Positions 904 through 27,138 of a stretch of 41,262 nucleotides of DNA are shown here, in pieces; the stretch's first letter is position 1, and every line of letters starts with the position of its first letter. The notes under the pieces were generated by a model. The model made no database searches, had not been told where the DNA came from, and saw nothing but the letters and a program-made list of their open reading frames with translations. Made by a program: the position numbers and the translations under genes. The stretch lies in assembly GCA_015231775.1 (NCBI GenBank), contig JADGAY010000010.1:1-41262 (forward strand), read 5' to 3'. This DNA is from Magnetococcales bacterium (GTDB lineage Bacteria; Pseudomonadota; Magnetococcia; Magnetococcales; Magnetaquicoccaceae).

Positions 904-2673
904 TCATTTGTCTGTTGTTTTTTCTTCTTTTCCACGATTACGCAACCCCATGGATTTCATGCGTCTCCATAAGGTGCTGCGACTGATTCCCAATTGGGTG
1001 GCCGCGACCTGTAACCGCCAACTCGAACCTTCCAACGCCTGTAAAATGGCTTTTCGATCCAGACCCTCGCCTGCCGTATGGCCGCTCATCAAGGGCCGTC
1101 CGCGCTGCTTGACCGGCAGTTGCAACTGTTTGAGCACGGGAAAATATTGGTTTCGAAAATCGTGAGGCAAATTGGACCATACCAGGATGGACTGCGGTGC
1201 GACAACCACGGCATGCTCCAACGTGTGTTCCAGTTCCCGTACATTGCCTGGCCAGTCGTGCTCCATCAGGGCTGCCAGCACTTCATCACTGATCCCTTTG
1301 ATTGAACGTTTCATCCGCGTGTTGAATTTTATCAAAAAGTGCTCAATCAGCATGGGCAGATCCACCTTGTGTTCCCGCAACGACGGGAGACGCATCTCCA
1401 CCACCTTGAGTCGATAATAGAGGTCTTCGCGGAACTTCCCTTCCTGGACCCGCTCGCGCAAATTGCGATGGGTGGCGGCTACCACACGCACGTTGACATG
1501 AATGGGCGCGCTATCCCCCACGGCCTCAAAAACCTGCTCCTGCAAAACACGCAGGAGTCTCACCTGCATATCCAGGGAGAGGTCACCAATCTCGTCCAAA
1601 AAGATGGTGCCACCGTCCGCCAGTTTGAACCGACCTGGTTTGTCACGCACGGCATTGGTGAAGGCCCCTCGCACATGACCAAACAACTCGCTCTCCATCA
1701 GTCCGACGGGAAGCGCGGCGCAATTGACCGCCACGAAACTGCGGTGCGACCTGGGACTGGTATTGTGCAGGGCACGGGCCACCAACTCCTTTCCCGTGCC
1801 CGTTTCTCCGGTGATGAGTACACTGGAGTCCACTTCCGCCAGTCGTTCAATCAATTCGTAGACCTCCTGCATGGCGGGACTGGAACCCACCAGTCCGTTC
1901 CAATTCTGTCGTGTTTGAGTCTCCCGTTCCAACATCACCAATCGGCTTTCGTCCCGCACCACCAGGATGACGCCTTGACTCTCTTGCAGCGGATCGTAAA
2001 ACAGGGAGGCCGTACAATTCAGAATACGTTCCATGCCGCTTTCATGCATGGAGATCATGCGTACCGCACGGTTGCTCTCGCCCTCTTCCCGCGCCTGGCG
2101 CAGCAAGGACTCCACTTTGGGAAAAAACCAGGCAATGGCGGTCTGCAGATATTGGTTCATGATGGATCGATTCAGTCCCAGGAGCCGGCTGGCGGCATCG
2201 TTGATCTGAATGATGCGCCACTCATGGTCCATGGCGATGATGGCATCATCCACACTCTGAAAAACGGCTTGCATGCGATTGATCAACAGTTCGCGCTCCT
2301 TTTGAACGCGTTTGTGTTCAATGGCAAGATTGGCCACATGCATGAGTTTGGAGGGGATGAGTGGTTTGGTGAGACAGTCGAAAGCCCCTTTTTGCAAAGC
2401 GGATTGCACCGATTCAGCATCAATGTCGTGGGCCACGATTACGGTACTGGTATTAGAATAGTTCTCACTGATCAGATTGACGACTTGAAGACCTGATGCG
2501 TCGGACAGGGAAATCTCAGAAATGACAAAGTGAAACTTAGCATTTTTCAATGCCTCCAGGGCTTCCTGAAAAGATCTGGCAATGGTGGTCGTGTATCCAG
2601 ACGCAGACATGACCTGTATCACCATGTTGCAAAACGATTCGTCGCTATCTATAACGAGAACACGGTTGTTCAT
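904..2673 (-). CDS. Sigma-54-dependent transcriptional activator: degenerate receiver, PAS, AAA+, Fis-type HTH
   Basis: The 589-aa protein has the NtrC-family layout: receiver-like domain (about 1-120), PAS-like domain (about 130-245), AAA+ domain (about 260-490) with Walker A GETGTGKE (289-296), a sigma-54 contact loop GAFTNA (336-341; the usual form is GAFTGA), Walker B FLDE (358-361) and WPGNVREL, then a Fis-type HTH at the C-terminus. It should remodel sigma-54 RNA polymerase using ATP. The receiver looks unable to be phosphorylated: the acceptor Asp is Glu53, the Thr/Ser switch position is Ala81, and one acidic-pocket residue is Ser10, although Lys103 remains. It is transcribed away from two sigma-54 promoters at 2859 and 4673, its likely targets. 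A palindrome 30 bp before its start suggests autoregulation. Confidence 0.93.
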   Translation of the reverse strand: MNNRVLVIDSDESFCNMVIQVMSASGYTTTIARSFQEALEALKNAKFHFVISEISLSDASGLQVVNLISENYSNTSTVIVAHDIDAESVQSALQKGAFDCLTKPLIPSKLMHVANLAIEHKRVQKERELLINRMQAVFQSVDDAIIAMDHEWRIIQINDAASRLLGLNRSIMNQYLQTAIAWFFPKVESLLRQAREEGESNRAVRMISMHESGMERILNCTASLFYDPLQESQGVILVVRDESRLVMLERETQTRQNWNGLVGSSPAMQEVYELIERLAEVDSSVLITGETGTGKELVARALHNTSPRSHRSFVAVNCAALPVGLMESELFGHVRGAFTNAVRDKPGRFKLADGGTIFLDEIGDLSLDMQVRLLRVLQEQVFEAVGDSAPIHVNVRVVAATHRNLRERVQEGKFREDLYYRLKVVEMRLPSLREHKVDLPMLIEHFLIKFNTRMKRSIKGISDEVLAALMEHDWPGNVRELEHTLEHAVVVAPQSILVWSNLPHDFRNQYFPVLKQLQLPVKQRGRPLMSGHTAGEGLDRKAILQALEGSSWRLQVAATQLGISRSTLWRRMKSMGLRNRGKEEKTTDK

Positions 2674-2693
2674 GAACGCCCCTTTGCATCAAA

Positions 2694-2730
2694 ATGAATT
2701 TGAAACAATATTGTTTTATGCTACATGAAA
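2694..2730. promoter_or_regulatory. Putative activator-binding site (UAS), unit 1
   Basis: The core is a perfect 14-bp palindrome AAACAATATTGTTT (2703-2716) inside a longer block shared with 4504-4540. A second shared block AAATGAATCA..CAACT follows at 2751-2767, and both copies keep the same 48-bp offset. The palindrome is centred about 150 bp before the sigma-54 promoter at 2859 and 30 bp before the divergent activator gene. That is a typical enhancer position for an NtrC-family protein. Binding by the neighbouring activator is inference. Confidence 0.65.
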
Positions 2731-2858
2731 CATAGAAAAATGAAACAAAAAAATGAATCAAACAACTCGTTTGGCAGAATTTCATCCGATTTTTTTCGGA
2801 TTCTGCAATACACACACCAGAATTAGCCTCTTAAGAATAAAATGAATTCTTTCCAAAA

Positions 2859-2874
2859 TGGCACACAGACTGCT
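2859..2874 (+). promoter_or_regulatory. Sigma-54 (-24/-12) promoter, unit 1
   Basis: TGGCACACAGACTGCT matches the consensus TGGCAC-N5-TTGCW, with GG and GC ten bases apart and one mismatch (C for T in the -12 block). It lies about 50 bp upstream of the small ORF at 2924. Confidence 0.8.
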
Positions 2875-2923
2875 TTGATTTCATTGTTAAGGTAAATTGG
2901 CATTTCAACATCTGGAGGCAATC

Positions 2924-3073
2924 ATGTCAAATTCTGAAATCAAAACAACGAACGAGTCTGGAAAGAAGTGTAAAGATAAAAAAGTAAAGAAAAACCGGTC
3001 ACACAAGAATGCAAACAGCATTGAGGTGGCTTCTCAGATTGCTTCGTTGGAAGTCGGGGCTGCAATGGCCTGA
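2924..3073 (+). CDS. Small Lys-rich protein of unknown function (49 aa), sigma-54 unit 1
   Basis: The ATG is preceded by a strong ribosome-binding site (CTGGAGGCAATC-ATG) that is identical to the one before the paralogous small gene at 4737. The product starts MSNSEIK, has a very basic middle (many Lys, some Ser/Asn, one Cys) and ends in a small hydrophobic, Ala-rich segment. No signal peptide or membrane helix is evident, so it is probably cytoplasmic or bound to nucleic acid or granules. It shares no clear sequence identity with the 54-aa protein beyond composition and the MS-S start, although their control regions are alike. The same transcript probably continues through a hairpin into the phasin gene. 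I do not recognise a family. Confidence 0.65.
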   Translation: MSNSEIKTTNESGKKCKDKKVKKNRSHKNANSIEVASQIASLEVGAAMA

Positions 3074-3105
3074 TGCGTGTGGTGTTTGTATCAGGCAAGA
3101 ACGTG

Positions 3106-3156
3106 ATGGCGACCCTACCATTCCGAAAGACGAAATGTGAATCCCAGGGTCGCCGT
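3106..3156 (+). other. Conserved hairpin between small ORF 1 and the phasin gene
   Basis: The arms ATGGCGACCC (3106-3115) and GGGTCGCCGT (3147-3156) pair around a loop of about 30 nt. The left arm with its flank, GAACGTGATGGCGACCC, recurs exactly in unit 2. No T tract follows, so it does not look like a plain intrinsic terminator. A processing, stability or attenuation element, or part of a small RNA, is possible. Confidence 0.55.
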
Positions 3157-3222
3157 TGCTATCTTGCTGGGCTTGTCAAGCAAGATACATGTCAACATAA
3201 AAATTATACAGGAGACACCATA

Positions 3223-3582
3223 ATGAAAGATAATGGTTTTTCTGAACATGTGAATGGCGTAGCCAAGAACTGCATGCACTCTGTTTGTGAATTGCAAAGA
3301 ATCAATGATCGCACGATACAGAACTTGATTTCACATCAATTGGAATCATCCGGCAAGTTTGCATTGGTTGGCGCACGACAGATGAATGATATTAATAATA
3401 ATTCAGACATGCTTGGTGTGAGTTTGTCTCAGGCAGCGATGGTCACGCACCTTGGCAAGATGATGATAAGCAATGCCAAACGGTCCATGAGCGTCCTGGA
3501 TCAGGCTCAAAGTGATCTTAAAGATTTGATCGAACACAAAAGTAAAGATTGGGAGCATGGGGTAAATTTTGGAGCAGAATAA
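3223..3582 (+). CDS. Phasin family protein
   Basis: The 119-aa product is almost wholly alpha-helical and amphipathic, with the pattern of small phasins: an N-terminal helix, a central region rich in Gln, Asn and Ser, and a C-terminal coiled-coil-like helix (about 70-108). No signal peptide is seen. Phasins coat polyhydroxyalkanoate granules and control their number and size. The start at ATG 3223 is set by the SD CAGGAG nine bases upstream; a longer reading frame back to 3073 lacks a comparable site. It is the second gene of the sigma-54 unit that begins at 2859. The family call rests on overall pattern because phasins have few fixed motifs. Confidence 0.6.
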   Translation: MKDNGFSEHVNGVAKNCMHSVCELQRINDRTIQNLISHQLESSGKFALVGARQMNDINNNSDMLGVSLSQAAMVTHLGKMMISNAKRSMSVLDQAQSDLKDLIEHKSKDWEHGVNFGAE

Positions 3583-3718
3583 CCTTGCAACCCGATTGAG
3601 AGCCAGGGCGATTCAGACAGGCATCATGCTGTTTGGCGTTCCATCAATGTCCGAGAGAAGGGGTTGATGGCAAGCCCACGACTCGGGTCGGGTCGTACTT
3701 CGAGAAGGGGAAATGACA

Positions 3719-4369
3719 ATGAGACACACAAACGGGTCCAGCAAGTTCGCCATCATCTGTGGGATGGTTTCTCTGTTGAGCTTGTCTGCCTGCATGACCA
3801 CGCCTGCGGAAAATGAGGGCTGGATGTCCACCAATGGGTACATCCAATGGCATCCCCAGTCCGGTATCCATACGCTCGCCGTAGCCGGCACCCAATGCTA
3901 TTTTTGCGAGAAGGTAAAAGCGCTTGTCCGCGTCAGCGTGCCGGTCGTCACTCCCAGGGAGCCTGCGCCCGACGTGAAAACAAGGTGTCCCAATCCTCCG
4001 GAAGGAGCCAAAGTCAATGCGGAGGGCTGCTGGATTTTGAATGATCTTCACTTCAAATTCGACCAGTCGGAAATCGAGCCCAATGCGTATCCGATTCTGG
4101 ATGAGGTGGTGGCGGTGTTGAACAACATCCGAAATGCCGACGTCCTCATTGAGATTCATGGCCATACCGACAGCACGGGCACGGTCGATTACAACGATGG
4201 CCTGGGAGAGCGGCGCGCCTACGCCGTGATGGACTATCTGGTCCAGCAAGGGGTGGATAGCACACGGTTCACCGCCATCAGCTTTGGCCTGCACAACCCC
4301 GTGGCCTCCAATACGACCAGAGAAGGCCGGGCGCTCAATCGGCGCGTGGAGTTGATACCCACCCCGTGA
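3719..4369 (+). CDS. OmpA-family peptidoglycan-binding lipoprotein
   Basis: The 216-aa protein has a lipoprotein signal peptide with lipobox LSAC about 27 residues in. A Pro-rich spacer with a CYFC motif follows, then a C-terminal OmpA domain (about 100-216). That domain has the LHFKFDQSEIEPNA strand, the HGHTDSTG peptidoglycan-binding motif and the closing NRRVEL. It should sit in the outer membrane and hold it to peptidoglycan. ATG 3719 is preferred to ATG 3713 because the GAAGGGG ribosome-binding site lies 8 nt before the former and only 2 nt before the latter. A small CACCCC/GGGGTG hairpin follows the stop codon (4360-4380). Confidence 0.88.
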   Translation: MRHTNGSSKFAIICGMVSLLSLSACMTTPAENEGWMSTNGYIQWHPQSGIHTLAVAGTQCYFCEKVKALVRVSVPVVTPREPAPDVKTRCPNPPEGAKVNAEGCWILNDLHFKFDQSEIEPNAYPILDEVVAVLNNIRNADVLIEIHGHTDSTGTVDYNDGLGERRAYAVMDYLVQQGVDSTRFTAISFGLHNPVASNTTREGRALNRRVELIPTP

Positions 4370-4503
4370 CACATGGGGTGAACCTGGATCCGGTGATGAC
4401 GGGCAATCACGGGCAAACGCCGGATTCAGGTTGGCGCTCTCTTGCATGATGGACCTTTCCACAACAAGAAGTGTGTCGTTCCCGTCCATCTCCCTGCGTC
4501 ACA

Positions 4504-4540
4504 ATGAATTTGAAACAAATTTGTTTTATGCAACATGAAA
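4504..4540. promoter_or_regulatory. Putative activator-binding site (UAS), unit 2
   Basis: A perfect palindrome AAACAAATTTGTTT (4513-4526) lies in a block matching 2694-2730 (shared ATGAATTTGAAACAA and TTGTTTTATGC.ACATGAAA). It is centred about 153 bp before the sigma-54 promoter at 4673. The spacing differs from unit 1 by only 4 bp. Confidence 0.65.
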
Positions 4541-4672
4541 GGGTGGACTTTGAGACAAACAAATGAATCAGTCAACTTTTTCAAAGATGAATTGGCTGTC
4601 TTTTTAGGAAAAATTGCAATATTTTGATAAAAATATGCCTTTTCTGGCAATAAAACACCATATTTTTGTGTA

Positions 4673-4688
4673 TGGCTCAAAGCTTGCA
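4673..4688 (+). promoter_or_regulatory. Sigma-54 (-24/-12) promoter, unit 2
   Basis: TGGCTCAAAGCTTGCA has GG and GC ten bases apart and a perfect TTGCA -12 element. It lies about 49 bp before the ATG at 4737, the same layout as in unit 1. Confidence 0.78.
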
Positions 4689-4736
4689 TTAATATTTTGT
4701 ATGGGGAAATCACATCATCCACCACTGGAGGCAATC

Positions 4737-4901
4737 ATGTCGCATTCAAATGCAAGATCATCAGGTAAAAGCAAGAGATCAGAGCGTTCCGATCAGAAAG
4801 ATAAGAAGAGCAGCAAAAAAAAAGGCAATCAAGATCTGAACACGGTCAGACCTTCTTCAGGCAATGATGCAGCGATTGTTGGGGTGCCCACCGCTGAATA
4901 G
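4737..4901 (+). CDS. Small Lys/Ser-rich protein of unknown function (54 aa), sigma-54 unit 2
   Basis: The start is set by the same CTGGAGGCAATC-ATG context as at 2924. The product begins MSHSNAR and is strongly basic and polar through residue 30 (SKRSERSDQKDKKSSKKK). It then has a short less charged tail ending in VGVPTAE. It looks disordered and cytoplasmic, with no signal peptide, membrane helix or known domain. Unlike unit 1, no second gene follows closely; the next coding region is the hybrid kinase at 5128. Conservation of promoter, ribosome-binding site and hairpin between the two units argues that this is a real gene, but I do not recognise the family. Confidence 0.65.
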   Translation: MSHSNARSSGKSKRSERSDQKDKKSSKKKGNQDLNTVRPSSGNDAAIVGVPTAE

Positions 4902-4979
4902 TTGATATTTTGGTCGTTGTTCTGAAGACCACGAACAGATGACTTGACTTTTCTCCGTTGAGCACATGTCTTGAACGTG

Positions 4980-5027
4980 ATGGCGACCCCTTTTGACGCG
5001 GTTATGTATTATAAAAAGGGTCGCCAT
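4980..5027 (+). other. Conserved hairpin downstream of small ORF 2
   Basis: ATGGCGACCC (4980-4989) pairs with GGGTCGCCAT (5018-5027). Adjacent CTTTT and AAAAA extend the stem. The 17-nt segment GAACGTGATGGCGACCC is identical to unit 1. No T run follows, so a plain terminator is unlikely. Confidence 0.55.
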
Positions 5028-5127
5028 TCGTATCATGTCATAATTAAAAACATTAGATCCATGCGCACTGAATGATCAATCATGTTGCGGCTGAATCCAA
5101 TGGGCGGTAACGGCGCCGGAGGCGTTC

Positions 5128-6846
5128 ATGCTTCAAAAATTCGATGATTCCATCTGCCTCAACTCGGAGCTTGACCTCTCGGAAGGGATTGCTGCACCGA
5201 AAGGCCACGCGCGTGCGCTAAAAAATGATGCCCTTCAAAACGCGATGTTCAACAGTATAAATTTTTCATTTATTGCAACGGATGCCAAGGGGGTCATTCA
5301 GATCTTCAACGTGGGTGCCGAGCATATGTTTGGCTACACGGCGGTCGAAGTGGTGAACAAGATTACACCTGCCGATCTTTCCGATCCGCGGGAGGTGATT
5401 GCCCGTGCCAAGGCGTTGAGCGCCGAGCTTGACACCCCGATCACTCCAGGTTTCGAGGCCTTGGTGTTCAAGGCTTCGCGCGGCATCGAGGACATCTATG
5501 AGTTGACCTACATCCGCAAGGACGGCAACTGTTTCCAGGCAGTCGTGTCGGTTACGGCCTTGAGGGATGATCAAGAGATCATTATCGGTTACCTGCTGAT
5601 TGGCACCGACAACACCGCACGCAAACAGGTGGAGGAGCTGTTGCGCCTGGAACGTCTGCGCCTGAATCAGGTGATGCAGGATAAGAATGCCGCATTGGAG
5701 CGCGCAAAATCGATGGCAGAAACAGCCAATGTCGCTAAATCGGAATTTCTGGCAAGCGTGAGCCATGAAATCCGGACGCCCATGAATGTGGTGTTGGGCA
5801 TGTCCGAATTGCTGCTGGAGACCAATCTTGACACGGATCAACGACATTTTGTTCAGACCATGTGCCATTCAGGGAAAGCCATGCTGGGCGTGATCAGCGA
5901 TGTCCTGGATTTCTCCCGTATTGAAGCAGGACACATCTCGTTGATGTCCTCTCCCTTCTCTCCCCGCCAATTGGTGCATGAGACTGTTCATCTGATGGAG
6001 GTGGTTGCCAAACAGAAGGGACTCACCATGACGGGTTGGGTGGATTCCGCAGTCCCGGAATTCGTTTTGGGTGATGACAGCAGAGTGCGTCAGGTACTCA
6101 TCAACCTGTTGGGGAATGCGATCAAATTCACCCAGCATGGGCAGGTGGAGATCCGTTTGAACCTCAATCCCTTGGAGTTGGAAACGTTCCTTTTCAAAGT
6201 GTTCGATACCGGCATCGGCATTGCCCAGGAACAACTGGTCAACATTTTTGAACGGTTTACCCAGATCGATGTGGGTATGAGCCGCTGTTATGGAGGCATT
6301 GGTCTGGGGTTATCCATCTCCCGACGTTTGGTGGAGTTGATGGGAGGGAAAATTGGGGTGGAGAGTCAATTGGGTCAAGGGAGTACCTTCTTCTTCACCT
6401 TGCCCGTGCGAATCGTGGCGCTCCCCGTATCCCACCCCATGCCGACAGCGTTGTCCGGAACACCCATTACGAAAATTCTGCACATCCTGTTGGTGGAAGA
6501 CGTTGAAGAAAATCAGGATTTGTTTGCCGCTTACATCATGAAGACACCTCACCATTTGGTAATGGTCAAAAATGGAATGGAAGCGGTGATCCGAGTGCGA
6601 AACGAAACATTCGACGTTGTGGTCATGGATATCCAGATGCCTGTCATGGACGGCTACACGGCCACGCGTCAGATTCGATTGTGGGAGAAGGAAACAGGAC
6701 AACCCCGATTGCCGATCATTGCGCTCTCTGCCCATACCATGGAGACCGAAATCAAACACAGTCAGGAAGCCGGGTGCGATTATTATCTGACCAAACCGAT
6801 CAGCAGAAGAAAAATTATAGAAACGTTTGAAATGTTATTTAAATAA
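5128..6846 (+). CDS. Hybrid sensor histidine kinase: PAS, HisKA, HATPase, receiver
   Basis: This 572-aa soluble kinase has one PAS domain (about 37-165), a short coiled coil, a HisKA dimerisation domain with phosphorylatable His213 (SHEIRTPMN), and a HATPase domain with N box Asn330, DTGIG (360-364) and [11 protein letters not shown]-terminal receiver follows with acceptor Asp501 (VVVMDIQMP) and the TKP lysine. No membrane helix is seen, so it senses a cytoplasmic signal through its PAS domain. That domain is a close relative of the triplicated PAS modules in the next gene, pointing to duplication and divergence. The SD GGAGG is 5 nt before the ATG. No Hpt domain is present, so transfer onward probably uses the Hpt domain of the next kinase. 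Confidence 0.93.
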
Positions 6847-6932: not shown

Positions 6933-9900
6933 ATGTCAAAAAAGAATTACATTCCAGACATGTCAGGCCCTGCTGCCGGCTCGACGAATGGTCTTGTCAA
7001 AATAAAACGCAAAGATGCGTTGTTTAAAACGGGCGCCTTGCAGAACGCGATTTTCAACAGCGCCAATTTTTCCAGTATCGCCACGGATGCGAAAGGGGTG
7101 ATTCAGATTTTCAATGTCGGGGCCGAGCGTATGCTGGGCTACACGGCAGTCGAAGTGATGAACAGGATCACCCCAGCCGACATTTCCGATCCGCAGGAGG
7201 TGATCGCCCGAGCCAAGGGTCTGAGCGTCGAGTTGGACACAACGATCACGCCGGGTTTCGAGGCGTTGGTGTTCAAGGCTTCCCGTGGCATCGAGGACAT
7301 CTACGAGTTGACCTACATCCGCAAGGATGGCAGCCGCTTTCCGGCGGTGGTGTCGGTCACCGCCTTGCGGGATGCCCAGGATGTGATCATTGGCTATCTG
7401 CTGATCGGCACCGACAATACCGCGCGCAAGCAGGCGGAAGCGGCACTTCTGAAGGCGGGCGCCTTGCAGAGCGCGATTTTCAACAGCGCCAATTTTTCCA
7501 GTATCGCCACGGATGCGAAAGGGGTGATTCAGATTTTCAATGTCGGGGCCGAGCGTATGCTGGGCTACACGGCAGTCGAAGTGATGAACAGGATCACCCC
7601 AGCCGACATTTCCGATCCGCAGGAGGTGATCGCCCGAGCCAAGGGTCTGAGCGTCGAGTTGGACACAACGATCACGCCGGGTTTCGAGGCGTTGGTGTTC
7701 AAGGCTTCCCGTGGCATCGAGGACATCTACGAGTTGACCTACATCCGCAAGGATGGCAGCCGCTTTCCGGCGGTGGTGTCGGTCACCGCCTTGCGGGATG
7801 CCCAGGATGTGATCATTGGCTATCTGCTGATCGGCACCGACAATACCGCGCGCAAGCAGGCGGAAGCGGCACTTCTGAAGGCGGGCGCCTTGCAGAGCGC
7901 GATTTTCAACAGCGCCAATTTTTCCAGTATCGCCACGGATGCGAAAGGGGTGATTCAGATTTTCAATGTCGGGGCCGAGCGTATGCTGGGCTACACGGCA
8001 GTCGAAGTGATGAACAGGATCACCCCAGCCGACATTTCCGATCCGCAGGAGGTGATCGCCCGAGCCAAGGGTCTGAGCGTCGAGTTGGACACAACGATCA
8101 CGCCGGGTTTCGAGGCGTTGGTGTTCAAGGCTTCCCGTGGCATCGAGGACATCTACGAGTTGACCTACATCCGCAAGGATGGCAGCCGCTTTCCGGCGGT
8201 GGTGTCGGTCACCGCCTTGCGGGATGCCCAGGATGTGATCATTGGCTATCTGCTGATCGGCACCGACAATACCGCGCGCAAACAGGTCGAAGAAGAGCAG
8301 AAGCAGCTCGATCAGCGTCTGCGTGATCAGCAGTTCCTGACACGATCTCTGATTGAATCCAACATTGATGCGTTGGTCACAACCGATCCATCGGGGATCA
8401 TCACGGAAGCCAACAAGCAGATGGAGGCGATCACGGGATGCACCCGTGACGAGTTGATTGGTGCGCCGATCAAGAATTACTTCACCGATCCGGAGCGGGC
8501 CGAAGCGGGCATCCATCTGGTACTCAACGAAAAGAAACTGATCGATTACGAACTCACCGTGCGTGCCTGGAATGGCCAGAAAATTCCGGTAACGCTGCAC
8601 GCGACCACCATCTACAACCGGAATCGTAATCTGCAGGGCGTGTTTGCCGCCGTGCGCGACATGACCGAACGCAAACGCCTGGATCAGGTGTTACAAGACA
8701 AGAATGCTGAACTGGAAAGTTCCAAATTCGTGGCGGAAAAAGCCAATCTGGCCAAATCGGAGTTTCTCGCCACGATGAGTCACGAGATCCGGACGCCGAT
8801 GAATGGCGTGATCGGTCTGACCCATCTGTGTCTGCAGACGGAATTGACCGGGCAGCAAAGGGACTATCTGGTCAAAGTCAGTGTCAGTGCCAATGTCTTG
8901 CTGCAATTGATCAACGACATCCTGGATTTTTCCAAGATCGAGGCAGGCAAGCTGACCATGGAAAACGTCGGATTCACCCTGAATGAAGTTCTGGGTGGCG
9001 TGGTGGCCATTTTGAGTGTCAAGAGCCAGGAAAAGGGTCTGGAGTTGTTGTTGGATACCAACAAAAATGTCCCCAATTATTTGCAAGGGGATTCACATCG
9101 CCTTGGGCAGATTTTGATCAATCTGGTCGGCAATGCCATCAAATTCACGGAAAAGGGCGAGGTTGCCATCACGACTACGGTGTTGGAAGAGACACAGGAG
9201 AATGTATTGCTCCAGTTCGTTGTGCGTGATACCGGGATCGGGATGACTTTTGAACAAATGAGCAAGCTGTTTCAGGAGTTTTCCCAGGGGGATACTTCCA
9301 TCACCCGGAAATATGGCGGAACCGGCTTGGGGTTGGCGATCAGCAAGCGCCTGGTCGAGATGATGGGTGGGCGGATCGGGGTAGAGAATGAACCCGGGCG
9401 TGGCAGTCGTTTCAGATTCACGGCCCGTTTCAACAAAACAGATGGCATGACGACCGAACTCCCGATACCGGCAAAAGATATCCGTGGATTGCACATCCTG
9501 GTCGTGGATGACAATGAAAGTGCACGACAGATCATCTCCGAGCATCTTGAGGCGTTGGGTTATCATCCGGTTTCAACCGAAAGCGGTGCACAGGCTCTGG
9601 AACGGCTTGTCGCGGCTGATCGGGAGCATGCGGCGTTCGATCTGGTTCTGATTGACTGGAAAATGCCTGGCATGAGTGGCATGGAAACCACGCGGCACAT
9701 TAAACAGGAGTTGGTGTTGCAAAAGGTTCCTGCCGTCATCATGGTGACCGCCTATGGTCAGGAATACATCGCATCTTCCACGGAAGATAAAAAGCTTCTG
9801 GATGGTTTCCTGATGAAGCCGGTCAGTATCACCGCGTTGTTGGACGTCATCATGATCGTCTTCGGTCATGCGCCGACAAGGCAGATGATCAGCCATGTCA

Positions 9901-10976
9901 ACAACCATCGCGCCTGTTTGGCGGGGGCCAGATTGCTCTTGGCGGAAGACAATGAAATCAACCAGCAGGTGGCCCGGGAGTTGTTGGAACAGGTTGGCAT
10001 CGAAGTGGTGATCGTCAACAACGGCCAAGAGGCGGTCGAAAGGATGGAGAGAGAGCACTTTGATGCCATTCTGATGGATCTCCAGATGCCGATCATGGAT
10101 GGTTTGACAGCGACGAAACGTATTCGGCGGGATAAATGTTCGGCAGAGGTGCCCATTATTGCCATGACGGCCAATGCCATGAATGGCGACCGTGAAAAAT
10201 GCCTGGATGCCGGCATGAATGACCATATTGCCAAACCTGTGGATCCAGACGAAATGTACACGACTTTGGCCAAATGGTTGCCGAGTCGATCCGGATCGAT
10301 CCCTCAACCCGCGGCTTTATCCTCTGCTGAAAAATATTTGCGACTTCTGCCGCCAGTTCCGCCCCTGCCAGGCATTGATCTGGCCAAGGGCGTGCGTAAT
10401 GCAGGTGGCAACACCACGTTGTATCAAAAAGTTTTGTTGAAGTTTGCCCGCAATCAAGGAGGGGCGTGCATGGAGATGGATCGCTGCCTGGCATCCGGCA
10501 ACTTCATGGCATTGGAACATGCCGCCCATGCCTTGAAGGGGGTATCCGCCACATTGGGAATCCTGAAACTGGCTGATCTGGCGGGCAGAATCGAAAAAAT
10601 GGCGCAGGTTGCGGAAAAATTGGAAAAGTTACCGGAATTGCTCGTCACCACAGCCAGTGAACTGGCACGCATCGTATCGACCATCGAAACCACGCTGGTG
10701 CAACTGGTTGTCATCAATATGGAGGAAGATCGACCGGAGATCATGATTGACCCGGAAATACTGGCGCCTTTGTTTCGGAAGGCGGTCGCGCGGCTTGTGG
10801 CATTTGACTCCACAGTGGAAAAAGTGGTGGAAGAGATCCAGCCTCTTGCGCGCGGCAGGGGCCGTCAAAAACGGCTGGAATCGATCAAGGTGGCCCTTGG
10901 AGCGTATGATTTTGAGATTTGTCTGTCGCTATTTCATGCCTGGGCGCAAGAGGAAGGGATTCACCTTGAGGAGTGA
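6933..10976 (+). CDS. Large hybrid histidine kinase: three near-identical PAS modules, a fourth PAS, HisKA, HATPase, two receivers, Hpt
   Basis: The 1347-aa cytoplasmic kinase begins with three tandem PAS modules of 142 residues each (about 34-455). A divergent PAS (about 461-585), HisKA with His617 (SHEIRTPMN) and HATPase ([19 protein letters not shown]) follow. Receiver 1 has Asp908 (VLIDWKMP) and receiver 2 has Asp1049 (ILMDLQMP). An Hpt domain has His1199 (AAHALKG), and a C-terminal helical region follows it. A complete His-Asp-His-Asp phosphorelay is thus possible within one protein. The C terminus after 1260 is helical without a known motif. The stop codon is 6 bp before the HD-GYP gene, so the two are likely cotranscribed and the HD-GYP receiver is a plausible final target. 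The ATG at 6933 has an AGAGGT SD. Confidence 0.95.
7031..8290 (+). repeat. Tandem array of three 426-bp PAS-coding repeats
   Basis: The units start at 7031, 7457 and 7883. By eye, copies 2 and 3 are identical and copy 1 differs from copy 2 by one base (AGAACG against AGAGCG), apart from the array edges. The period is a multiple of three, so gain or loss of a unit keeps the frame. Near-identity, including synonymous sites, indicates very recent duplication or ongoing gene conversion. Confidence 0.95.
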
Positions 10977-26257: not shown

Positions 26258-26647
26258 TCAGGCCTCGGGCGTTTTTGCCGGAATTGTGCCGGGGGGCACC
26301 GATGGGGAGGCGATTTCCGACAACAGATCGCGCACTCGGGTCACGAGATCCGGAAGTCTCCGGGTAACGGTCAGCCACACGATCTCGTGATCGACATCAA
26401 AATACCCATGAATCAAACGATTGCGCATGGCAATCATGGCCCGCCATGGCACATGCGTCGCTTGATCACGACATGCGTCGGACAGATCTCCCGCCGCTTC
26501 ACCGATCACCTCCAGGCACCGGATCAAGGCATGCAGAAGCATCCGATCGGTATGCAGATCGGCCAAGACCCGCCCCTCGACAAAGCTCAAGGCATCCGTG
26601 GCCGCGTCCAACATGTGGCGCAGCGGTACGTGATCATCCCGAGACAT
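26258..26647 (-). CDS. hepT: HepT-like HEPN-domain toxin (DUF86)
   Basis: The 129-aa helical protein carries the HEPN RNase motif RNRLIH followed by GY (RNRLIHGYFDVD, about residues 76-87), as in HepT toxins. It pairs with the nucleotidyltransferase gene just upstream; the two overlap by 14 bp, a typical MNT-HEPN arrangement. The toxin would cleave RNA and be neutralised by adenylylation of a Tyr near the motif; Tyr of the HGY motif is present. I chose ATG 26647 over an in-frame TTG two codons earlier. It lies between the flagellar operon and a nitronate monooxygenase, on the same strand as both. Confidence 0.88.
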   Translation of the reverse strand: MSRDDHVPLRHMLDAATDALSFVEGRVLADLHTDRMLLHALIRCLEVIGEAAGDLSDACRDQATHVPWRAMIAMRNRLIHGYFDVDHEIVWLTVTRRLPDLVTRVRDLLSEIASPSVPPGTIPAKTPEA

Positions 26648-26939
26648 ATTCAACCCGCGCCGTATTCAACACCTGATCCCGGAAATAGCGGCTCAACTCC
26701 CCCAAGGTACGCAGATCAACCTTGCGACCATCGAGCAGATTGGACAGTTCTGTCTCCATTTCAACCAGAGAAAAATAGTCGGGTGCCTGACCCGGCACGA
26801 ACTCAACCAACAGATCCACATCGCTGTCCGGGCCATCCTGCCCGCGCGACATGGAACCAAACAACGCGAGACGCAGGATTGACCTCCTCCGACAGAATTC
26901 GCTCAAGATCGATTGCGGCAATAATGGCTCAGGAACCAT
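26634..26939 (-). CDS. mntA: MntA-like minimal nucleotidyltransferase antitoxin
   Basis: The 101-aa protein has the nucleotidyltransferase motif GSX10DXD in LFGSMSRGQDGPDSDVDLLVEF (about residues 27-48), with both metal-binding Asp residues, and a C-terminal helical part ending in YFRDQVL. It should transfer AMP to the adjacent HepT toxin and silence it. ATG 26939 is chosen for its GGAGGTG SD about 9 nt upstream; an open frame extends 39 codons further but has no such site. It is the first gene of the pair. Confidence 0.88.
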   Translation of the reverse strand: MVPEPLLPQSILSEFCRRRSILRLALFGSMSRGQDGPDSDVDLLVEFVPGQAPDYFSLVEMETELSNLLDGRKVDLRTLGELSRYFRDQVLNTARVEYVSG

Positions 26940-27138
26940 CTCGTGCTTCACCTCCAGGACGAATGGCACGCCAACATAACCCACCTCTGGCGGCCTGATT
27001 CCGGGCCATGTTCGCGGCATCGTTTCGGCAAAGGGGCAAAGCGATGCCGCAGCCAAGGCTGCGCGCAGCTTTTTTCGCAGCGCGGGTCATAAAAAAACTA
27101 AAGAAAAACCTGGGAAACTCTGTCTCCAAACCTCCGCC

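Follow-up and report, generated by a model that had tools for sequence, protein, structure and literature searches.

The 41,262-nucleotide stretch of DNA analyzed here, hereafter the window, comes from a draft genome of the Magnetococcales, an order known for magnetotactic bacteria, and encodes a likely sigma-54 activator next to two similarly organized transcription units for small lysine-rich proteins. The window (contig JADGAY010000010.1 of assembly GCA_015231775.1, positions 1 to 41,262) is contig C39 of this draft, which spans 3.82 Mb in 389 contigs and is 89% complete. The comparison set includes 48 Magnetococcales genomes; the source genome is denoted G000 and loci of its relatives are labeled by genome and contig (Gnnn:contig). 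A sigma-54 regulon to which the two units would belong is well supported by the comparative sequence analysis.

Organization of the locus

The likely activator is an enhancer-binding protein of 589 amino acids (aa), identified by its Pfam domains and orthologs and encoded on the minus strand (904-2673); both units are on the plus strand. Unit 1 has a bipartite enhancer (2686-2725) that combines a dyad (2686-2706) with a tail (TGTTTTATGCTACA, 2712-2725), and the enhancer of unit 2 (4496-4535) has the same layout (dyad 4496-4516, tail 4522-4535). Each includes an exact AAACAA-WW-TTGTTT palindrome (2703-2716 and 4513-4526) that appears in none of 100 shuffles, and AAACAAWWTTGTTT has two exact copies in the whole draft, both in these units. 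A second enhancer block, TGARACAAAnAAATGAATCA, lies at an equal offset in the two units (TGAAACAAAAAAATGAATCA at 2741-2760 and TGAGACAAACAAATGAATCA at 4551-4570). Downstream of it, both units have a -24/-12 element of the GG-N10-GC type, TGGCACACAGACTGCT at 2859-2874 in unit 1 and TGGCTCAAAGCTTGCA at 4673-4688 in unit 2, with scores of 19.7 and 19.4, respectively, on a hand-made scale with a maximum of 21.3.

An identical 17-nt ribosome-binding-site stretch, CTGGAGGCAATCATGTC (2912-2928 and 4725-4741), accompanies the genes for lysine-rich protein 1 (49 aa, pI 9.7; 2924-3073) and lysine-rich protein 2 (54 aa, pI 10.2, 67% identical to its G009 ortholog; 4737-4901), neither of which contains an aromatic residue. 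The former gene is followed by that of a probable, diverged phasin (119 aa, 3223-3582, plus strand) and the latter by that of a PAS hybrid histidine kinase (5128-6846, plus strand). Hairpins are located between the first lysine-rich open reading frame (ORF) and the phasin gene (3099-3154) and 3' of the second lysine-rich ORF (4973-5025), with z-scores for the best 70-nt stretch of -2.9 and -3.2, respectively, and have an identical 17-nt arm, GAACGTGATGGCGACCC (3099-3115 and 4973-4989). The first-pass annotation of the window had reported the palindromes, the second block at a fixed offset, the common ribosome-binding site, the hairpin arm and the 49-, 54-, and 119-aa frames, all of which are present as described; the mechanical ORF list opens these three frames at earlier codons. 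The -24/-12 sites are also downstream of the palindromes as claimed, but not at the claimed spacing of 146-150 bp: from the end of the palindrome to the start of the promoter, the distance is 143 bp in unit 1 and 147 bp in unit 2. An OmpA-domain protein (PF00691) is encoded between the two units (3713-4369); G009, with one unit, has no such gene there.

The source genome contains a third unit, locus L081 (G000:C16:3000-11000, around position 3267, minus strand), that keeps the enhancer, the sigma-54 site and a nearly identical ribosome-binding site. Its lysine-rich frame is broken by early stops, and a phasin-like C-terminal remnant (recognized by eye) is followed by a receiver-like protein and another receiver-containing frame. 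This copy is a decayed or misassembled paralog.

The units of the window are only 1.8 kb apart and G009 has a single unit at the same place, so the likeness might simply go back to a segment that was duplicated locally not long ago, with no functional meaning. This explanation is highly improbable. The likeness is limited to patches, whereas the two lysine-rich paralogs are saturated at synonymous sites (dN 0.78). Among the patches are an 83-nt block with 80% identity (2685-2767 and 4495-4577), which is longer than the first-pass annotation had reported, one of 30 nt at the ribosome-binding site (83%) and two at the hairpin, of which one (21 nt) is 81% identical and the other (17 nt) shows no difference. 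Furthermore, G009 and G000:C16 have the same patches, those of the enhancer and promoter being common to all these units, and the enhancer is found again in other families.

The activator family

The window activator has the domain architecture REC-PAS-AAA+(sigma54)-Fis-type HTH (Pfam), with matches to the sigma-54 interaction domain (PF00158, E 2.4e-71) and the DNA-binding HTH (HTH_8, E 3.5e-9), and rpoN is encoded in the same genome. It is under the cut-off of all 25 NCBIfam models compared (NtrC, NorR, ZraR, and others), reaching 386.6 of 558.6 bits for NtrC. The ortholog set, taken among the matches listed, consists of 24 genes with the start present from 17 genomes; G026:C135, in which the activator start is missing, was left out of the upstream analysis.

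The position of the receiver phospho-acceptor is occupied by Glu in the window activator instead of Asp. Among the 24 orthologs, 10 have D at this position, 4 have E (including the window protein), 3 have A, 3 have V and 4 have no receiver, so that the aspartate is replaced or lost in 14. The sigma-54 contact loop of the window protein reads GAFTNA instead of GAFTGA, and Asn is found at position 5 in 19 of the 22 readable orthologs, the others having Gly, His, and Ser, one each. According to a study of NorR, the G266D and G266N substitutions bypass the regulatory domain while open complexes are still formed, and Asn at this position makes NorR constitutive (PMC2941729). Because the receiver is degenerate and the loop reads GAFTNA, the activator is probably not switched by phosphorylation, and, by analogy with NorR, many members of the subfamily may be poorly coupled to it. 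No paper on GAFTNA was found in the open-access library searched.

The enhancer element and sigma-54 promoters in Magnetococcales

Outward from the activator start, the upstream regions contain the dyad GTTTCAAAnTnnnTTTGAAAC and then the tail TGTTTCATGCTACC, 24-26 bp from start to start. The tail reaches the threshold of at least 12 of 14 matching positions in 15 of the 24 orthologs and the dyad that of at least 14 of 17 in 13. The enhancer is absent from all 39 control activators, which comprise 6 distinct proteins of another subfamily from within the order (8 rows with duplicates merged) and 33 from outside it with a match that starts no later than residue 5; the best control tail matches at 11 of its 14 positions. 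The 33 replaced an earlier set of 20 out-of-order controls (none with a site or enhancer) because 6 of those 20 start inside the gene. Shuffle p-values are biased, as the scored sequences are also the source of the motif; the controls are free of that bias and are a fair test of the motif.

The palindrome is the form that this longer bipartite element takes in close relatives. The first-pass annotation considered the palindrome itself conserved, which is correct for close relatives, but the conserved enhancer is wider. The bipartite element was adopted because the 20-mer around the palindrome (up to 3 mismatches) is widespread, with matches in 47 of 61 genomes and in most cases no sign of a unit, and because a reversed control pattern matches as well. 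A short version of the tail (GTTTCATGCTAC, 1 mismatch) has matches in 48 of 48 genomes and was discarded as too unspecific.

A strong outward sigma-54 site is present within 520 bp of 14 of the 24 activator orthologs, compared to 3 inward sites and the 1.1 expected from shuffles. These sites co-occur with the enhancer: 13 of the 15 orthologs with the tail have a site vs. 1 of the 9 without it (Fisher p=0.0005). Control activators have such sites in 2 of 6 in-order cases (near-identical sites, two genomes) and 2 of 33 out-of-order cases. The divergent sites and their co-occurrence with the enhancer support the original proposal of a sigma-54 regulon with small lysine-rich proteins and the neighboring activator as its likely regulator. 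Six of the 14 divergent promoters face a lysine-rich ORF directly (the window, G006:C61, G009, G020, G018:C153, and G015). The promoter in G011 leads to a cytochrome c-like ORF with the lysine-rich ORF behind it, the one in G026:C177 to HflK, and five (G036, G021, G018:C58, G030:C96, and G026:C183) to receiver-containing proteins recognized by eye; the remaining one runs off the contig end. Because 7 of the 14 face other genes first, the lysine-rich proteins are not the sole content of the regulon.

The units could also be under sigma-54 control through another enhancer-binding protein, the neighboring activator being incidental. Indeed, the source genome has 24 matches to the window activator at E <=0.001 among the matches listed, and binding by the neighbor is a prediction from sequence. 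This alternative appears unlikely, considering that 15 of the 24 orthologs vs. 0 of the 39 controls have the tail immediately upstream and that distal lysine-rich units, six of which were scored, bear related elements, weakly so in G006:C84 and G008. The dyad threshold is reached in 4 of these six and the tail threshold in 1 (G000:C16).

The lysine-rich proteins and the hairpin

Profile searches and promoter-guided scans identify 13 intact lysine-rich ORFs in 10 of the 48 Magnetococcales genomes, in four families of the order: two each in G000, G006, and G026, and one each in G008, G009, G011, G015, G017, G018, and G020. The first profile search gave matches in 7 of the 48 genomes and a later one in 10, with most other rows of the latter being members of the query alignment; a weak match in G003:C22 (E 7e-4) is among the later 10 and is excluded from the count of 13. 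A sigma-54 site and a half-site cluster, with no intervening called gene, are present upstream of 11 of the 13. Further units do exist in relatives, as the first-pass annotation anticipated, and its notion of a self-contained regulon of two units has to be revised in view of these 13 ORFs, the decayed third copy and the seven promoters that face other genes. In 398 genomes drawn from the phylum, order members included, matches were found in 7, all inside the order, so that a distribution of the family beyond it was rejected for this sample; viral, phage, plasmid and metagenome collections were outside the search.

The 13 proteins are 48-108 aa long, with pI 9.7-10.6, 4-13% glycine and GRAVY values of -0.72 to -1.47, and have no aromatic residues (11 proteins) or one (2 proteins). 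The homologs start with MS, have a lysine-rich first half and are under selection. For five of the six members scanned, Pfam gives no match up to E 10, whereas the longest of the six (108 aa) has two below the cut-off; the search for a match in the PDB was negative as well. The model of the 54-aa window protein contains no secondary structure (mean pLDDT 61), which is consistent with disorder without being proof of it. Two ortholog pairs show purifying selection, namely window protein 2 and its G009 counterpart (dS 0.75, dN 0.19, dN/dS 0.25) and the proteins of G006:C84 and G008 (dS 0.82, dN 0.19, dN/dS 0.23), and the lysine-rich peptides are therefore selected coding genes. The earlier claim that control and RNA elements are kept while the peptides diverge is valid for the two window paralogs but not for these orthologs.

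The hairpin arm pair GGCGACCC..GGGTCGCC occurs twice in the genome, both times in the window units; with two copies and no more, a genome-wide repeat was rejected. In G009, GACAC/GTGTC replaces the GACCC/GGGTC of the window, a matching change on both arms. The stems behind other lysine-rich ORFs are unrelated in sequence and lineage-specific. The conserved hairpin of the first-pass annotation is accordingly confirmed for the window units and by the paired change in G009, but not beyond, given that its sequence is lineage-specific, that a hairpin is clear in only 6 of the 13 units and that there is no room for one in G020. Among known RNA families, none matches the 2600-5200 segment above the cut-off; a nematode snoRNA model below it (5063-5118) was taken as chance.

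The arrangement of these units also brings to mind regulatory leader peptides that are themselves inert, with translation and the hairpin tuning the next gene by attenuation: the lysine-rich ORF usually comes first after the promoter, nearly half of the units have a clear hairpin next to it on the 3' side and the identity of the next gene varies. However, the purifying selection on the protein sequence, the length of some family members (100-108 aa), the near contact between the lysine-rich ORF and the next gene in G020 and the lack of a T-run behind the three hairpins that were folded all make attenuation a rather improbable explanation. The hairpin is instead read as an intercistronic stabilizer or partial terminator, that is, a secondary and not a defining part of the units.

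Downstream partners

The 119-aa protein of unit 1 itself falls below Pfam thresholds (no Phasin_2 match, phasin_3 at E 0.02). The 10 relatives in its alignment do match Phasin_2 (E 2.4e-16 at best) and TIGR01841, and the top PDB match of its two-helix model (pLDDT 81.7) is PhaP (5ip0, E 0.021, TM 0.63/0.69), in agreement with the first-pass assignment of unit 1 as an operon with a phasin. In three loci (G006:C84, G008, and G020), an Hsp20 gene is located directly behind the lysine-rich ORF. In the first two, an RpoH-like sigma factor is encoded further on, over the sigma-32 subfamily cut-off but under the rpoH equivalog cut-off. The Hsp20 sample consists of 47 distinct genes (52 rows with duplicates merged) out of 79 matches, 4 of the 47 having less than 320 bases upstream. 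A sigma-54 site with enhancer half-sites was found upstream of only 3 of the 47, all behind a member of the lysine-rich family; 4 others have a sigma-54-like site but no unit, and 4 a short lysine-containing ORF but no site. General sigma-54 control of Hsp20 was rejected on these numbers, and that of phasins was rejected as well, the window gene being alone among the 19 examined.

Signaling proteins are found as partners as well. A kinase with the same domain make-up as the PAS hybrid kinase of unit 2 is encoded behind the G009 lysine-rich ORF, and receiver-like proteins are encoded downstream of the lysine-rich ORFs in G018 and G026 and, as read from sequence, in G011 and G015. In G017:C663 (L204), the lysine-rich ORF lies upstream of a CheB/CheR-like frame (by eye), another signaling partner.

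Apart from the units, a phasin-like gene is located a few hundred bases upstream of a same-strand Hsp20 gene in G000:C125, G003:C30, G005:C468, G006:C74, G008:C90, and G010:C17, and the scanned upstream sequence contains neither the enhancer nor a sigma-54 site. These six loci represent a separate association of phasin and Hsp20 within the genus.

Elsewhere in the window, three head-to-tail 426-bp repeats that are 99% alike (7030-8286) encode three near-identical PAS modules (by eye) of a hybrid kinase (6933-10976); these might reflect recent amplification or pose an assembly question. Two adjacent ORFs on the minus strand (26258-27056) resemble, by eye alone, a HEPN/nucleotidyltransferase (MNT) toxin-antitoxin pair.

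A putative autoregulated sigma-54 regulon

Taken together, the two units probably belong to an autoregulated sigma-54 regulon of the Magnetococcales whose products include a disordered polycation, made alongside stress proteins or proteins of inclusion surfaces. The divergent activator would bind the bipartite element a short way ahead of the activator's own start codon as well as copies elsewhere and, once bound, would turn on transcription by the sigma-54 polymerase from a -24/-12 promoter about 70-310 bp away. Its activity would be set by its level, through autoregulation via the same element, and perhaps by the PAS domain. Operons that contain a lysine-rich gene usually begin with it, and its product would be an aromatic-poor, Lys/Ser-rich, probably disordered protein of 48-108 residues; the clear hairpin in about half of the units could allow an excess of this first cistron. 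The next gene varies, encoding a phasin (window), Hsp20 (three loci), a kinase or a receiver, and other targets open with receiver, HflK, or cytochrome genes. The lysine-rich protein is most likely a stress- or storage-linked polycation that would bind polyanions (DNA, RNA, or polyphosphate) or inclusion surfaces beside phasin or Hsp20, although this proposed function is a guess on moderate evidence.

Several observations weigh against this interpretation. The partners are mixed, which weakens the granule and stress theme, and only 6 of the 14 divergent promoters directly face a lysine-rich ORF, with 7 leading to other genes first. By the hand-made promoter score, 10 of the 24 orthologs have no divergent sigma-54 site, and the enhancer motif was derived from the same sequences on which it was scored. 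In the distal units of G008 and G006:C84, dyad and tail alike score weakly. For the G011 lysine-rich ORF, the promoter is 0.87 kb upstream and the ORF's own 400 bp lack a sigma-54 site; for the one in G017, the 469 bp up to the contig end lack one too. The z-scores of the best 70-nt stretch range from +0.1 to -3.3 across the units, with 6 of 13 at or below -2, values that are flattered because the best stretch was picked in each unit. The probable disorder is deduced from composition and a low-confidence model, and 10 of the 24 activator orthologs retain the receiver aspartate.

A more specific scheme, which is considerably more speculative than the regulon itself, envisages a phosphorylation-independent sigma-54 response in which the GAFTNA activator makes a disordered polycation along with a hydrophobic-surface protein (phasin or Hsp20). 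The two might form a two-part coat of inclusions (PHA, polyphosphate, or protein aggregates) or a nucleoid tether.

Such a regulon in an order associated with magnetotaxis comes with a testable predicted binding site and a natural activator family that carries the NorR-type bypass residue. Should the Hsp20 and phasin link hold, sigma-54 would control inclusion and protein-quality genes. The aromatic-poor lysine-rich proteins present a clean object for asking what small bacterial polycations do. In the open-access library searched, no paper that combines Magnetococcales with sigma-54 was found and nothing was recognized as this system, which is no proof of novelty.

Comparison with known systems

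Short, very hydrophilic and basic proteins with almost no aromatic residues are known among hydrophilins, which are defined by a glycine content above 6% and high hydrophilicity, and among small basic stress proteins such as YciG. The lysine-rich proteins resemble these but differ in the lack of Pfam matches for five of the six members scanned, the negative PDB search and the confinement of matches to the order within the 398 genomes drawn from the phylum. A second parallel is with granule proteins. Phasins of the PhaF/PhaM type bear lysine-rich histone-like tails, and the protein that follows lysine-rich ORF 1 groups with phasins through its relatives. As in PhaF, a basic part occurs beside a granule protein, which suggests a similar division of labor, but in the present units it is encoded by a gene of its own, including at loci with no phasin.

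With respect to regulation, the units are most similar to NtrC/NorR systems such as norR-norVW, where an activator with AAA+ and Fis-type HTH domains is divergent from a -24/-12 promoter, with several enhancer sites in between. Most of the orthologs even carry the same freeing Asn as the NorR bypass variant (PMC2941729). Unlike in NtrC and NorR, the receiver is degenerate or lost in 14 of the 24 orthologs, PAS takes the place of GAF, the targets are different and the score stays below the equivalog cut-offs. Finally, the link between a small heat shock protein and sigma-54 is reminiscent of ibpAB in Escherichia coli, where ibpB, once listed as sigma-54 dependent, shows only background sigma-54 chromatin immunoprecipitation (ChIP) signal at its promoter (PMC4591121). 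In contrast to E. coli ibpB, the three Hsp20 genes associated with the lysine-rich ORFs have both the promoter and the enhancer half-sites.

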